Shown piece after piece: positions 263 to 24,255 of a stretch of DNA of 39,264 bases. Numbering within the stretch: the stretch's first letter is position 1; each line of letters starts with the position of its first letter. The position numbers were made by a program, and so were the translations under genes. The notes under the pieces are model-generated. The model saw only the letters and a list, made by a program, of their open reading frames with translations, had not been told where the DNA came from and ran no database searches. The stretch covers positions 1 to 39,264 of the forward strand of contig JABJGI010000028.1 of NCBI GenBank assembly GCA_018662305.1, read 5' to 3'. This DNA comes from Porticoccaceae bacterium. GTDB taxonomy: Bacteria > Pseudomonadota > Gammaproteobacteria > Pseudomonadales > GM7GCV1.

Positions 263-1396
263 ATGAGTTATCAGGTTCTAGCGAGAAAATGGCGGCCCCA
301 GACCTTCCACGATGTGGTGGGCCAGGAGCATGTTCTCAAAGCGCTGGTAAACGCCCTCGATAACCAACGGCTTCATCACGCTTATCTTTTTACTGGTACT
401 CGCGGAGTGGGCAAAACCACGCTGGCACGCATATTGGCGCGTTGCCTGAATTGCGAGACGGGAATTACCAGTCGCCCCTGTGGTGAATGCAGTTCCTGTC
501 AGGAAATTACTGCGGGGAACTTTATTGATCTGATCGAAGTAGATGCGGCCTCCAGAACCAAGGTTGATGATACTCGCGATCTGATGGATAACGTCCAGTA
601 TGCGCCAACAAGAGGGCGCTATAAGGTCTATCTGATCGATGAGGTTCATATGTTGTCGACGCACAGCTTCAACGCTCTGCTGAAAACTCTTGAGGAACCA
701 CCCGAGCATGTGAAATTTCTGCTGGCCACAACTGACCCGCAGAAACTTCCGGTTACTGTTTTGTCTCGCTGTTTGCAGTTCAATTTAAAGAACATGAGTG
801 CCTCCCAGATATCTGAATATCTGGATAAGGTTTTGAAAAGCGAAGACATCAGCTTTGATCAGGCGAGCTTGGAACTAATTGCCCATGCCGCCTCTGGCAG
901 TATGCGTGATGCGCTCAGTTTGACCGATCAGGCCATCGCCCACGGCAATGGCAATCTAGCCGAGAATGAAGTGGCTAGTATGTTGGGCACGGTTGATCGA
1001 ACCCATCTTCACGACCTTCTTGATGCGCTGGTAAATGCCGACGGCCCAGCTTTGATTAATACCTGTCGCGAGATCGCCGGTCATTCGGTGGACTACCAGA
1101 CCCTTACCAGCCAACTGCTGAATATGATTCATACCATTGCTGTGCACCAGCAGGTCCCTGAAGTGGCAGTCACCAGTGTTTCCAACGATCGATTGCAGGT
1201 TTACGCAGATCAATTTGGTGCGGATCAGATTCAGCTTTTCTATCAGATGCTATTGGTGGGTCGCAAAGATATTCAAATTGCGCCTGATCCCGAAACAGGA
1301 TTCGAAATGCTGATGCTGCGGCTTTTGGCTTTTGCTCCGCAGGACCGCAGTGCGAGCGAAAACACCGCTGGAGCCAGCTCCGGAAAAAAGAACTAA
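263..1396 (+). CDS. dnaX: DNA polymerase III gamma-like subunit (zero-frame product of dnaX)
   Basis: This is the 377-aa product read without frameshifting. It carries the clamp-loader AAA+ module: Walker A GTRGVGKT (residues 45-52), the zinc cysteines C64, C73, C76 and C79, Walker B YLIDEVH (about 123-129) and the sensor-1/SRC region LSRC. It ends just after domain III, the collar that oligomerises the clamp loader, so it equals a gamma subunit. In the zero frame the stop TAA (1394-1396) comes one codon after the slippery A AAA AAG (1384-1390). The start is ATG 263 (MSYQVLARKWRP is the canonical N-terminus), with no strong Shine-Dalgarno. ybaB and recR follow, the usual cluster. Confidence 0.95.
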   Translation: MSYQVLARKWRPQTFHDVVGQEHVLKALVNALDNQRLHHAYLFTGTRGVGKTTLARILARCLNCETGITSRPCGECSSCQEITAGNFIDLIEVDAASRTKVDDTRDLMDNVQYAPTRGRYKVYLIDEVHMLSTHSFNALLKTLEEPPEHVKFLLATTDPQKLPVTVLSRCLQFNLKNMSASQISEYLDKVLKSEDISFDQASLELIAHAASGSMRDALSLTDQAIAHGNGNLAENEVASMLGTVDRTHLHDLLDALVNADGPALINTCREIAGHSVDYQTLTSQLLNMIHTIAVHQQVPEVAVTSVSNDRLQVYADQFGADQIQLFYQMLLVGRKDIQIAPDPETGFEMLMLRLLAFAPQDRSASENTAGASSGKKN

Positions 1397-2274
1397 ACCC
1401 GGATCGGCCACCCGAGCCGGTTCGGGAGCCCTCAGCTGATAGAGAGCCCTCAGCCCCTAAAGAGCCTTCAGCAGAGCCATCGGCGAATAAGGAGCAAGAG
1501 CCCTCAGCCCCTAAAGAGCCCTCAGCAGAGCCGTCAGCGAATAAAGAGCAAGAGCCTTCAGCGGATAGAGAGCCGTCGCCAGTCGCTGCTGATGCCGCTA
1601 CTGATACAGCACGGAAACCCGAATCTCCTGCACCAGAAATAGCCGACGACATTCAAGTAGATCAGGTTGATTCTTATGAATCATCCTCAGAGTCGAAAGT
1701 TGACGCGCTTAGCCCAACGCAAATCTCTGATGTATTGCGAGAAGCGGCGATTCTTGATTCGATAGGAGAACAACAACTCCAGGAGGAAAGTGAGGAGTCA
1801 GACGAGCCAGCGGCACCGATAGAAATACTGCAGTCAGAGCCGATCTCCCATGAACAACGACTGGCACAGTCCGACCCCGCTCCGGATCAGCTGGAAAATT
1901 CGGAAGACTGGATTGCGCTCTTTTCACACTTGCCGTTGGAAGGCATGCTGAAATCCATTTGTGGTCAGCTTTCATTCCGCACCAGGGTAGGAGATGAAGT
2001 TGCTTTTGATATCGACCCCAGCGTAAGTGGTGTGCTGTCAGATAAATACCAGACGAAATTTGCCGAAATTTTATCCGCCTATCTAGGGCAGAAATTACAG
2101 GTCATTATTGACAGTCAGAATGGTGCGAATGAATCGCCGACGGCGCGTACAACTAGGTTGCTTGCGGAAGCCCTTGCGGAGGCCGAGGCTCAATTATTGG
2201 AATCATCAGCCGCTCAGATTCTCAGTGAAGCATTTGATGCCAAACTGGTTCCCGGTTCGGTCAATCTCAAATAA
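263..2274 (+). CDS. dnaX: DNA polymerase III tau subunit, predicted by -1 frameshift
   Basis: If ribosomes slip -1 on A AAA AAG (1384-1390), reading resumes with GAA at 1390 and stays open to the TAA at 2272-2274, giving about 670 aa (E. coli tau is 643). The added part is a Pro/Glu/Ser/Ala-rich linker with an 18-residue tandem repeat, then a C-terminal domain starting near 1905 (EDWIALFSHLPLEGM) and ending LVPGSVNLK, typical of tau domain V, which binds the polymerase alpha subunit. Domain V is essential for coupling the two polymerases, so the shift is expected to occur. The alternative is a one-base sequencing error in the A-run, since an A7 run would fuse the frames directly. Confidence 0.85.
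1370..1426 (+). promoter_or_regulatory. programmed -1 ribosomal frameshift signal in dnaX
   Basis: There are three elements in the order and spacing known for E. coli dnaX. An SD-like GGAG (1370-1373) lies 10 nt before the heptamer. The slippery heptamer A AAA AAG (1384-1390) is in the zero frame. A stem-loop of 11 bp (1398-1408 with 1416-1426, two G-U pairs, 7-nt loop) starts 7 nt downstream. The zero-frame stop TAA sits at 1394-1396, inside the spacer. Confidence 0.85.
1444..1551 (+). repeat. 54-bp tandem repeat x2 in the tau linker
   Basis: Two consecutive 54-bp units (1444-1497 and 1498-1551), differing at a few third-codon positions, encode EPSAPKEPSAEPSANKEQ twice, and a partial third unit follows. 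The length is a multiple of three, so expansion or contraction keeps the tau frame. The repeat lies between domain III and the C-terminal domain, a flexible region. Confidence 0.85.
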
Positions 2275-19566: not shown

Positions 19567-20205
19567 CTAGTCGTTTCGAAACCAGCCTGCCACTGAGTAT
19601 CTGTCGCGCCTGGCGGGAAGCACCTCGTGCGGAAAATCCTCGCTCAGAAAAACCACAATGGTGCCCCAGTGGGGCAGTACGCTGATCGCTTCACTACCGG
19701 CATCACTGGGATAAATAATTAGCTCGCCTCCGTCCTTGATACCCCAATCTTGATGTAGATAGATAATGAGAGACAGCACCCGGTTTGATGTGCCGCGAAA
19801 CGCATCCACATGCCTACGATAAAAAGTGTTAGGAGCGTAGTGGGCGAAGTGGCTTTCGAAGGTTCTGAGTCCGAGGAATAATCTATGATTAAGATATCGT
19901 CGCAGTTCTGCAGTCCATTTTAGCCAATGATTTCCCGCCAAAGACTCGCCTGTGATCCAGCAGATTTCATCGCCACGGATGCGCCCGTCGTGTCGATACC
20001 CGGCGGTGCGCCCAACTCCGGCTGTTTGGAAAGCACCCTTTTCCATATGGCTATGATGGTAGGAGAGTGAGCGAGTCAGTCGATCGGGTAGTGCCCTGGG
20101 ATTGATGCTATATCCCTGTGCTTCAAGGTCTCTGGCTATCCGCGAAAAAAGGCCATCTTCGAAGTTTCCACCACAGGATGTGTTTTTGCGAAGAGCAACT
20201 GACAT
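19567..20205 (-). CDS. 2OG-Fe(II) oxygenase, prolyl-4-hydroxylase / SM-20-like
   Basis: 212 aa. A double-stranded beta-helix fold carries the HxD...H...R motif: H132 and D134 (FYRRHVDAFRG), H193 (EDFPHEVLP) and R202 (RRDRYSVAGWF). RGDEICWITGE and DGGELIIYPSD are features shared with the bacterial prolyl hydroxylase PPHD, which hydroxylates a proline of EF-Tu; whether this one has that substrate is not known. It acts in the cytoplasm using 2-oxoglutarate and O2. It is transcribed in the same direction as mgtC, 264 nt downstream, so it is probably a separate unit. Confidence 0.88.
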   Translation of the reverse strand: MSVALRKNTSCGGNFEDGLFSRIARDLEAQGYSINPRALPDRLTRSLSYHHSHMEKGAFQTAGVGRTAGYRHDGRIRGDEICWITGESLAGNHWLKWTAELRRYLNHRLFLGLRTFESHFAHYAPNTFYRRHVDAFRGTSNRVLSLIIYLHQDWGIKDGGELIIYPSDAGSEAISVLPHWGTIVVFLSEDFPHEVLPARRDRYSVAGWFRND

Positions 20206-20469: not shown

Positions 20470-20979
20470 TTAATCCGGAAATTTGTCCGGCGAAAAACGC
20501 TTTTTTACGCGCGCATGTACGCCTTTTGTCAGGTTAAAAAAGTGTTCTTCCAGTAAATCAACGCCATAGAGAATGAGTACGATCAGCAAGGTAAGCTTGA
20601 TGGCGGGCGTGAGATGACCAGCCGCCACCAGTGTGCCTAGCGCGGCGAGGGCCCAGATGGCGGATGCCGAAGTTACCCCGATGACCGATCCCTTCTTAGT
20701 GAGCATGACGCCCGCGCCCAGGAATCCAACACCGGTGATAACCTGCCCAATCACGCGAGAAGGATCAACCAGGTCGCTCTGCAGGTTAAAAGCTGTCGCC
20801 AAAAATAAATAGGTTCCCAGTACGATCAGGGATGATGTTCGTATACCGACCGGTTTTCCCCTGAGCTGCCGTTCCAGCCCAATCGCAGTGCCACAAAAAA
20901 CAGCTGTTCCAATTGACGCCCAATCAAAAGGGCTGATCTCCAGGAGTTGTTCAAGCCAATGCATTGATTCGTTGTTCAT
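20470..20979 (-). CDS. MgtC/SapB family membrane protein
   Basis: 169 aa. The MgtC core starts at FDWASIGTAVFCGTAIGLERQLRGKPVGIRT, followed by VIGQVITGVGFLGAGVMLT and VTSASAIWALAALGTLVAAG, with about four membrane helices and a charged C-terminus. Family members bind or regulate ATP synthase or Mg2+-related physiology; bacterial homologues outside pathogens are of unclear role. The start ATG 20979 follows a GGGGG stretch about 11 nt upstream and overlaps the GNAT gene by 29 nt, suggesting coupled translation. Confidence 0.9.
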   Translation of the reverse strand: MNNESMHWLEQLLEISPFDWASIGTAVFCGTAIGLERQLRGKPVGIRTSSLIVLGTYLFLATAFNLQSDLVDPSRVIGQVITGVGFLGAGVMLTKKGSVIGVTSASAIWALAALGTLVAAGHLTPAIKLTLLIVLILYGVDLLEEHFFNLTKGVHARVKKRFSPDKFPD

Positions 20980-21457
20980 GAGATATCTGACCCCCGTTTG
21001 GAAGTTTGAGCCGCATACGAATAGCGGCTTCGCCGTCGGCGTAGTAATTGGGCAAGGTTTTTTGCGGACAAAATCCGCAGCGCCGGTACAGACGCTGGCT
21101 CCGGTTGTCGCTTTTTCTTACTTCGAGGCTACAGGCTCGGTGCCCTCGTTCCTGTAGCGCTTCAACAAGTTTCCATAAAAGTGCTGCGGCGATTCCTTGT
21201 CCTCGAAAATCTGGCAGTGTGGCCAATGAATACAAACGAGCGGGCTTTGGCGGTTGCGGCCTGAGTATCATTCCATAAGACGCGATTTTGCTATCGATGT
21301 CAGTGGCAACCCAGGTCATCGATTTGGCCTGGGTGAGTAAGTAGCGCATCTGTCGACGACTGATTCTGTCGGTCTCAAAACACTGTTCTTCAACGAGCAA
21401 AAGTTGATCCAGATCAGCTAGACCGGCTTGCCGCAATTGGTAGCGCCTGTCGTGCAT
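20951..21457 (-). CDS. GNAT-family N-acetyltransferase
   Basis: 168 aa with a single acetyltransferase domain. LYSLATLPDFRGQGIAAALL contains the acetyl-CoA-binding R/Q-G-x-G-x-A loop, and SDNRSQRLYRRCGFCPQKTLPNYYADGEAAIRMRLKL is RimI-like. Its ATG (21457) overlaps the stop of the ATP-grasp gene (TAATG), so they are translated in sequence. An acetyltransferase next to a RimK-type ligase suggests an acetylated peptide or peptide-modified product; this is inference. Confidence 0.88.
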   Translation of the reverse strand: MHDRRYQLRQAGLADLDQLLLVEEQCFETDRISRRQMRYLLTQAKSMTWVATDIDSKIASYGMILRPQPPKPARLYSLATLPDFRGQGIAAALLWKLVEALQERGHRACSLEVRKSDNRSQRLYRRCGFCPQKTLPNYYADGEAAIRMRLKLPNGGQISHEQRINALA

Positions 21458-22338
21458 TAGCGCCCCCGCAACTCCAGCCGTCGATGGAACTCGGACATGA
21501 TTTGCATGTAGAGCTCTTCGCCCAACCAGGCATCTTCGACTTTGTGTTCAATACTCGGGTTGTCATTTACCTCTATCACATAGGCCTTGTCGTGGCTGAC
21601 CTTAATGTCGACACCATAGAGACCGTTGCCAACCAGCTTGCAGGCCCTGAGTGCGATGTCGAGTACTTCTTTGGGAACCTCGTAGGTCGCCAATGTTTCA
21701 AATCCCCCAGAAAAATTTCGCTTGGATTGTGGGTTGTAGATCTGCCAATGATTGGGCGCCATGTAATAACGACAGGCATAGAGTGGACGGCCATTGAGTA
21801 CACCGATCCGCCAGTCATAATCGGTGTATAGATACTCCTGAACCAATACCAACGCTGATCCCTGTAGCAGCAAAGCTAGGTTTACTCGCAGCTCCGCCCG
21901 GTTGCATGCTTTAAATACGCCTAATGAAAAAGAGCCCTCGGGCATTTTTAGAACCATGGGGTAATCAAACAAGGCTTCCAGCGCAAGATGCGTGGCCTGG
22001 GAGTTGTCGCTCACAATTTCGGTTTGCAAGCTCGGGATTTTTTTATAGCTAAAGGCGTCATGGAGGAACACCTTATTACAGCACCGAAGAATAGAATCCG
22101 GATCGTCCATGACGATCAGGCCATTTGTTTCGGCTTCACAGGCAAGTCGGTAGCTGTGGTGATTAATTGCCGTCGTTTCTCGGATAAACAGGGCGTCAAA
22201 GTGGTTGATATCCAGCAATTGGTCTGCGTTGAGCACGCTGGCACGAATCCCCAGTTTTTCAGCAGCCTTAACAAATTTGCCTATGGCGCGCTTGTTGCTG
22301 GGAGGCACCGGTTCTTGATCGTTGACCAGAATGGCCAT
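21457..22338 (-). CDS. RimK-like ATP-grasp ligase domain (C-terminal part of a split gene)
   Basis: 293 aa. The sequence LFIRETTAINHHSYRLACEAE, DDPDSILRCCNKVFLHDAF, the catalytic acid/ligand block VIEVNDNPS and the LVLVQEYLYTDYDWRIGVLNG region mark the ATP-grasp domain of RimK-family proteins, which join an amino acid to a carboxylate using ATP. It starts MAILVNDQEPVPPSNKRAIG, where the family's second domain begins. In full-length homologues an RLAN domain precedes it. Here an in-frame TAG (22417-22419) lies 78 nt upstream of this ATG. No good ribosome site is visible before ATG 22338, so independent translation is uncertain. Confidence 0.75.
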   Translation of the reverse strand: MAILVNDQEPVPPSNKRAIGKFVKAAEKLGIRASVLNADQLLDINHFDALFIRETTAINHHSYRLACEAETNGLIVMDDPDSILRCCNKVFLHDAFSYKKIPSLQTEIVSDNSQATHLALEALFDYPMVLKMPEGSFSLGVFKACNRAELRVNLALLLQGSALVLVQEYLYTDYDWRIGVLNGRPLYACRYYMAPNHWQIYNPQSKRNFSGGFETLATYEVPKEVLDIALRACKLVGNGLYGVDIKVSHDKAYVIEVNDNPSIEHKVEDAWLGEELYMQIMSEFHRRLELRGR

Positions 22339-22416
22339 ATCCCAGCGAAGCTCTTTTTTGCGCCCACTGGAGCGGGTATAGGGCCCTTTTTTTTCAATGA
22401 TGTTGAAGAATTTGGC

Positions 22417-22905
22417 CTATTGGCTGGCCGGAAAATCGCTAAAAGATGCTCGTTTGATGGTTATTTCGCCAGAATCGAGCTCATAGCCAATTTCTAAAAT
22501 AGGTACGGTGTAACGCCGGAATACCTTTGTCGCAATTTTCTGCAGCTCGGGAATTTCTGCGCTCCCCATAAAAACCAGAAAGTTCCCAGATAGCAATGGA
22601 GCAAGAGCAGCCAGATCCTTGTTATTCAATTCCAGTTGTTGAGCAGTCAGGGTGCGGGCGCCGCCACGCATATCATTAATGGTTCGGACACTTGGAAAAA
22701 CCAGATGGTTGCGCGATTCGGCCAAAAGAGAGCAGTAATAGCCCCGGCTGAGATATTTTTCTGTGTTGCACAGATTGATCAACCGGATTCTGGGTTCATT
22801 CAGTTTGGGATAGTCTTTTAGATAGCTCTGAAAACTGATTTTTTCGAGGCCATCGTCACAGCCTGCCTCTATAGGTTCATCGGTAACAAGCAGTGTCTTA
22901 TACAT
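22417..22905 (-). CDS. RLAN (RimK-like ATP-grasp N-terminal) domain, truncated by amber codon
   Basis: 162 aa: MYKTLLVTDEPIEAGCDDGL, then SFQSYLKDYPKLNEPRIRLINLCNTEKYLSRGYYCSLLAE, typical of the RLAN domain that precedes the ATP-grasp domain in large RimK-family proteins. The frame stops at TAG (22417-22419). The start is ATG 22905 without a clear ribosome site. It is the first gene of an overlapping cluster (RLAN, ATP-grasp, GNAT, MgtC). Confidence 0.8.
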   Translation of the reverse strand: MYKTLLVTDEPIEAGCDDGLEKISFQSYLKDYPKLNEPRIRLINLCNTEKYLSRGYYCSLLAESRNHLVFPSVRTINDMRGGARTLTAQQLELNNKDLAALAPLLSGNFLVFMGSAEIPELQKIATKVFRRYTVPILEIGYELDSGEITIKRASFSDFPASQ

Positions 22906-22965: not shown

Positions 22966-23265
22966 CTATTTAGCGGCGCTTTTTCTACCCCTAATTAGAG
23001 GAGATACTTTAGAGCAATACCGCATCCAGACTTTTTCATGATCTGTTTCTGCATTTTTCTCTCCATTGCAAACCGCAACAAAGCGCTCTTCTTCTGGTGA
23101 ACCAGGGCTCCTTGATCCTTCCGCCAGTGCTTGATAAGTCCAACCATGGTTCATTAAAAGTTCTGCTTGCTGGATACTGAACTCACCGCTTCGGTCAAGG
23201 CCATAATGAAAGTGCTGCTCGCCATAGAACCTTCGGCTAGAGAAAAAAGGGGAAAAATCTCGCAT
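22966..23265 (-). CDS. maoP: MaoP/YifE family (DUF413) macrodomain Ori protein homologue
   Basis: 99 aa. The DUF413 core is visible: GLDRSGEFSIQQAELLMNHG, then EERFVAVCNGEKNAETDHEKVW, close in order to E. coli MaoP (112 aa), which organises the Ori macrodomain. The E. coli gene lies divergently from hdfR, as here, and this conserved pairing supports both calls. The start ATG 23265 lies directly beside a 14-bp palindrome (23266-23279). Confidence 0.88.
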   Translation of the reverse strand: MRDFSPFFSSRRFYGEQHFHYGLDRSGEFSIQQAELLMNHGWTYQALAEGSRSPGSPEEERFVAVCNGEKNAETDHEKVWMRYCSKVSPLIRGRKSAAK

Positions 23266-23385: not shown

Positions 23386-24255
23386 ATGAACACTGAACTC
23401 TTACGAACGTTTCTGGAGGTGGCAAAAACCCGGCATTTTGGTAATGCCGCTGAAAACCTTTATCTCACACAGTCGGCCGTGAGCTCCCGTATCAAACAGT
23501 TGGAAGAAACTGTGGGTGTTCCGCTGTTTACCCGACAGCGGAATAACATTTTGCTAACGCTATCAGGGGAAAGGTTACTTCCACATGCAGAGAATATGCT
23601 TGTCGCGTGGCAGATTGCGTTACAGGAAGTGGGTGTACCATCCAATCAGGCATTGCAGCTTACCCTAGGTGGAACCTCCAATCTCTGGGATGCCTTCTTG
23701 CAGTCTCTGTTGCCCAAACTCTCGGAAGAGTTTCCGGACCTGTATCTCCGTACTGAAATTAATTCCTCTCAAGAGTTAACACGTGCCTTGCTGGGCGGTC
23801 GCGTGGATATCATGATCGTGCTTGATCCGCCCACCAGCACTGATCTGGAAATCAGGCGAATAGGGAAGATGGAATTAATAATGGTCGCCAGTGTGCCCGG
23901 TGTTGCGCGTGAGGATATTCCAGACCTTGGTTACCTATATGTTGACTGGGGAACCGCCTTTAATATGGAGCAGGCGCGGTTATTTGATGAGCCGGTCGTA
24001 CCTCTGTTGCATACGGGCCAGGCACCCATTGCCCTGGAGTTTTTACTGTCTCAGGGTGGTGCTGCTTTCTTGCCCGCTGCTCTGGTATCACCCTATCTTG
24101 AGCAAGAGATGCTTTACCCGGTTCAGGATGCCGTTAGTACTTCACAGGAAATAAAGCTGGTCTTTTCCAAAAAGTCGGAAAAATGTGTTCAATTGATTCC
24201 TATTGTAAACATGTTAGAAGGTCTGTATACCAAAGCCATTGCTCAATCATCATGA
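23386..24255 (+). CDS. hdfR: HdfR, LysR-type transcriptional regulator
   Basis: 289 aa. The N-terminal winged helix [40 protein letters not shown] is nearly the same as that of E. coli HdfR ([40 protein letters not shown]), followed by an effector-binding region. In E. coli HdfR represses flhDC and activates gltBD. The divergent maoP gene is the conserved neighbour. It may regulate the shared intergenic region. Confidence 0.9.
   Translation: [289 protein letters not shown]

Follow-up and report, generated by a model that had tools for sequence, protein, structure and literature searches.

An in-frame TAG codon in an RLAN-ATP-grasp ligase gene of a Porticoccaceae bacterium, probably an early stage of gene loss

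Background

Ligases that join an N-terminal RLAN domain (PF14401) to a C-terminal RimK-type ATP-grasp domain (PF08443) are encoded by single open reading frames (ORFs) in marine Gammaproteobacteria, among them Amphritea, Reinekea, Haliea, SAR92 and others. As members of the ATP-grasp ligases, they have a putative role in amide-bond formation. A literature search on the RLAN family and on split genes of this kind yielded nothing specific. Free-standing ATP-grasp ligases are represented by RimK, LysX and ArgX (PDB 5zct, 7qyr, 3vpd, 3vpb).

The window analysed here, a stretch of 39,264 nucleotides from a Porticoccaceae bacterium (GCA_018662305.1, contig JABJGI010000028.1), carries a ligase gene that shares with the single-ORF enzymes the domain order, the length, the invariant residues and the usual neighbour, a GNAT acetyltransferase gene. 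Unlike them, it has a TAG at residue 163. It resembles a bacterial nonsense pseudogene: a lone in-frame TAG breaks a gene that is intact in other respects, and related lineages have whole, remnant or no copies. Unlike such pseudogenes, the window gene shows no further decay so far.

Results and discussion

The ligase gene lies on the minus strand, which the first-pass annotation of this DNA had not given, in a frame of 482 codons (22905-21457) interrupted by one TAG. It opens with the ATG at 22905, runs for 162 codons to the TAG at 22419-22417 and continues with 319 open codons to the TAA at 21459-21457; the two halves share one frame with an open linker, as had been annotated, and the two domains do not stand in a single uninterrupted ORF. 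The RLAN-domain ORF (22420-22905) matched PF14401 with 110 bits against a cut-off of 25 (E 7.8e-32; residues 26-153, profile positions 2-131 of 150). Behind the TAG follow 26 codons without ATG, GTG or TTG (22339-22416), which span what remains of the last RLAN helix, followed by a disordered linker. The ATP-grasp ORF (21457-22338) begins with an ATG, codes for 293 amino acids with a complete RimK-type fold (PF08443, E 2.6e-11, 43.9 bits) and ends in a TAA that overlaps the start codon of the gene behind it (TAATG). Key motifs of this second half were indeed retained: the alignment has EVNDNP (as EVNDNPS), and 97 of the 101 near-invariant residues after residue 188 were kept, next to 27 of 28 before residue 156. 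Having lost five of 129 over both halves, the window copy keeps slightly fewer near-invariant residues than most relatives. Their retention on both sides of the TAG makes the observation more than a chance arrangement. Further stops or frameshifts were found in neither half.

The premature stop has no counterpart in orthologues. The homologues had been described as single proteins, which holds for all 81 loci compared (80 from genome contigs and one from a relative's genome), none of them with an internal stop. RLAN matches in order, class and phylum samples came from about 300 distinct genomes by our own tally, the order table omitting the weakest matches; among the places listed, nearly all stood in a single open frame with room for both domains. 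The exceptions were the window, the genomes G074, G540 and G002 described below, and G503, G648 and G026. Short RLAN frames in the last three were considered as the same split and rejected, all three being contig ends. A clade with a maintained split ligase was not found among the approximately 300 genomes with RLAN, nor was the same split found in the congeners of the window. A single-ORF version in relatives, named in advance as counter-evidence, does exist and therefore argues against an old shared split. The residue aligned to the TAG varies (R 23, Q 18, L 11, K 8, W 6, others), hence an ancestral glutamine cannot be inferred and the proposed origin by a CAG to TAG change is not sustained. 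The best identity of the window ligase to its homologues was about 57-60 %, at which synonymous sites are expected to be saturated, and the tree did not firmly place the window copy among the 36 rows around it.

The read-through protein was modelled with AlphaFold2 from 27 sequences (mean pLDDT 81). The last RLAN helix was predicted at residues 160-170 and the first ATP-grasp strand at 189-193, with residues 173-186 disordered in between; the RLAN profile covered residues 26-168 of the read-through protein, reaching profile position 149 of 150. According to the model, the TAG cuts the last RLAN helix, not the linker. The position "exactly at the domain boundary" in the first-pass annotation is not quite right: the TAG lies within the last predicted RLAN helix and the linker follows. 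The next possible start, 26-27 codons downstream, is Met190 at the first ATP-grasp strand. It had been put forward as a possible new start (MAILVNDQEP); this methionine is inherited, being part of the family motif RWD-M/L-AIL of intact homologues. A product from Met190 would have the full fold of free-standing RimK, LysX and ArgX; unlike these, the 293-residue ORF derives from a two-domain enzyme, and the sequence identity is 18-22 %.

A start at this place would suit a functional fission, in which the RLAN and ATP-grasp domains are two chains of one operon that associate into a working ligase, the second chain being made by re-initiation at the inherited methionine. Both ORFs are intact with their invariant residues kept, and the second begins at the first ATP-grasp strand as in the free-standing RimK enzymes. 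Met190 is preceded by an ordinary Shine-Dalgarno pairing (-4.0 kcal/mol vs a gene median of -3.0), but about a quarter of all window ATGs (26 %) pair equally well or better. The stop would also deprive the RLAN chain of the end of its helix, and the split is maintained in no other surveyed genome. We consider such a two-chain enzyme doubtful.

The pattern of constraint bears on the same question. In leave-one-out profile scores, the interval between stop and ATG of the window copy had z = -3.0 (rank 3 of 82), the N part -0.55 and the C part -0.80. In an end-branch test, with a tree from which the linker columns had been left out, the window branch ranked first of 29 in the interval 164-189 (2.5 vs a median of 0.98), second of 29 in the N part and third of 29 in the C part, i.e., a mild acceleration throughout. 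A nearly invariant tryptophan and one codon have been lost from the interval. The least family-like segment of the gene thus appears to be the one that would be untranslated in a split gene; this could mean that it has been so for some time, which lends weak support to a fission and is compatible with a general relaxation as well. However, residues 331-350 deviate almost as much (z -2.85), the tryptophan is also missing in the intact homologues L021, L048 and L052, and the RWD directly before Met190, which a split gene would leave untranslated, has stayed conserved. A maintained functional fission by one stop, with the interval already free of constraint, would be the one-mutation birth of a two-subunit enzyme, a claim that we find harder still to credit.

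Downstream of the ligase, on the same strand, follow intact genes for a RimI-like GNAT acetyltransferase (20951-21457), the conserved operon partner, an MgtC-family membrane protein (20470-20979; PF02308) and a 2OG-Fe(II) oxygenase (19567-20205; PF13640). A GNAT relative is located near the ligase in most homologous loci, mostly directly downstream; the oxygenase is a ligase neighbour in L014, L042 and the Haliea loci, and L014 shares with the window the order ligase-GNAT-MgtC-oxygenase. The GNAT start has a strong Shine-Dalgarno pairing (-8.6 kcal/mol). With its downstream genes intact, the operon, the ligase excepted, still appears to be functional. Upstream of the ligase, a 99-residue ORF (22966-23265, minus strand) matches hypothetical proteins of NCBIfam PRK11027 with an E of 4e-22, below the curated cut-off, and is adjoined by a gene for an HdfR-like LysR regulator (23386-24255).

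A genome-wide reassignment of TAG was rejected. Release factor RF1 (prfA) is present and intact, TAG terminates 12 of the 39 window ORFs, and a tRNA with a CUA anticodon was not found among the 33 tRNAs identified, an incomplete set. A scan for interrupted genes covering 608,648 bases of this genome, with at least 90 open codons on each side of the stop and the next start at least 20 codons on, returned the focal TAG as the only such pair. In six similar, weaker pairs no Pfam family spanned the stop, as expected for neighbouring genes, and a seventh, short pair had no match. RF1, this tRNA set, the TAG usage and the lack of another such gene in 609 kb give no hint of recoding. A programmed or suppressor-driven read-through of the TAG, which would give the full-length ligase, could draw on the frame being open across the stop and on a moderately stable RNA structure 3' of it (more stable than simple shuffles by about 2 SD). 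In addition to the missing signs of recoding, the site is variable, no homologue has a stop, and the sequence just 3' of the TAG is poorly conserved, the opposite of a selected read-through context. We hold read-through to be very improbable.

The single base that decides the case comes from a draft genome of 170 contigs, and it may be a sequence error or the base of a minority strain, the gene of the organism itself being intact. On the other side stand the lack of a second single-stop interruption in 609 kb, from which the assembly is not generally error-rich, and the mild acceleration of the ligase gene. We judge an erroneous base unlikely, though it leads the alternatives to a nonsense mutation. 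The set of alternatives in the first-pass annotation was sensible. After a nonsense mutation we rank base error or strain mixture first, the two-chain split next and read-through last. General assembly noise was also considered and is unsupported by the scan; the break in dnaX is a standard shift site and no error. This gene (263-2271, plus strand) carries A_AAA_AAG at 1384-1390, the zero frame ends just after with the TAA at 1394-1396, and the -1 frame contains the C-terminal part of tau (NF005942, profile positions 375-651). It has the "reversed" arrangement, with gamma made by the zero-frame stop and tau by frameshift, described for a minority of bacteria (PMC5009743).

Near the window, the presence of the ligase is patchy. 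Orthologues were not found in G001 of the same genus and G003 of the same family; G004 has an intact copy of 39 % identity. G002, a congener, retains an RLAN remnant of 103 residues and the ATP-grasp half is gone; the result of a first search, that this genome had no ligase gene, was rejected. The remnant (L146:1435-1746; G002:C198) adjoins a divergent GNAT gene and a RimK-like gene, with a peroxiredoxin-like gene next. In G074, which belongs to another family, the ligase frame (L145:953-2442; G074:C90) is shifted by a deletion of 4 bp, as judged against its congener G153; what results is a 144-residue RLAN ORF that overlaps a 358-residue ATP-grasp ORF. G540 has a multiply broken GNAT-ligase pair (L162:1624-3244; G540:C10) with a GNAT-RLAN chimeric ORF and pieces of the ATP-grasp part in other frames. 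The same family has been independently interrupted or lost in these three genomes, and in G074 the halves stay open as in the window. The breaks differ from the TAG of the window, being a deletion within the RLAN domain in G074, several breaks in G540 and a truncation in G002. Absent or remnant copies in near relatives together with independent breaks in two others argue that the ligase gene is dispensable and has been repeatedly lost.

A recent nonsense mutation in a dispensable RLAN-ATP-grasp ligase gene, now in an early stage of loss, is in our view the probable explanation. It is favoured by the single ORF in 81 of 81 loci, the patchy presence near home, the independent breaks, the mild acceleration, the cut helix and the normal use of TAG; the deviant segment between stop and ATG speaks against it and would suit two ORFs under separate maintenance. 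Nor does the sequence demonstrate decay beyond the stop, since the halves are without a further stop or frameshift and the catalytic motifs are kept. As an early pseudogene, the window copy would owe its one nonsense codon to a mutation in this lineage. Translation would end at the TAG and release a 162-residue RLAN fragment whose last helix is cut short; re-initiation at the inherited methionine, 78 nt downstream, would yield the ATP-grasp half at a low level at best, and the joined ligase would not be made. The intact GNAT gene downstream would keep its own strong ribosome-binding site. A study on endosymbionts (PMC13345370) states that transcripts from recently formed pseudogenes can remain present and even associate with ribosomes and that the proteins are rarely detected; on this account, expression alone would not prove function.

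Conclusions

The interrupted ligase gene most likely reflects ordinary gene loss, or else an unconfirmed base of the draft assembly, and not a novel mode of decoding. It adds one case of a lost or broken gene in a small-genome lineage (2.0-2.3 Mb in the genus), and it calls for caution, as a young break is expected to leave an intact-looking half after the stop. Should the two halves prove to be made and to work together, the locus would present a clean gene fission by one base, for which the intact relatives could serve as assay reference.
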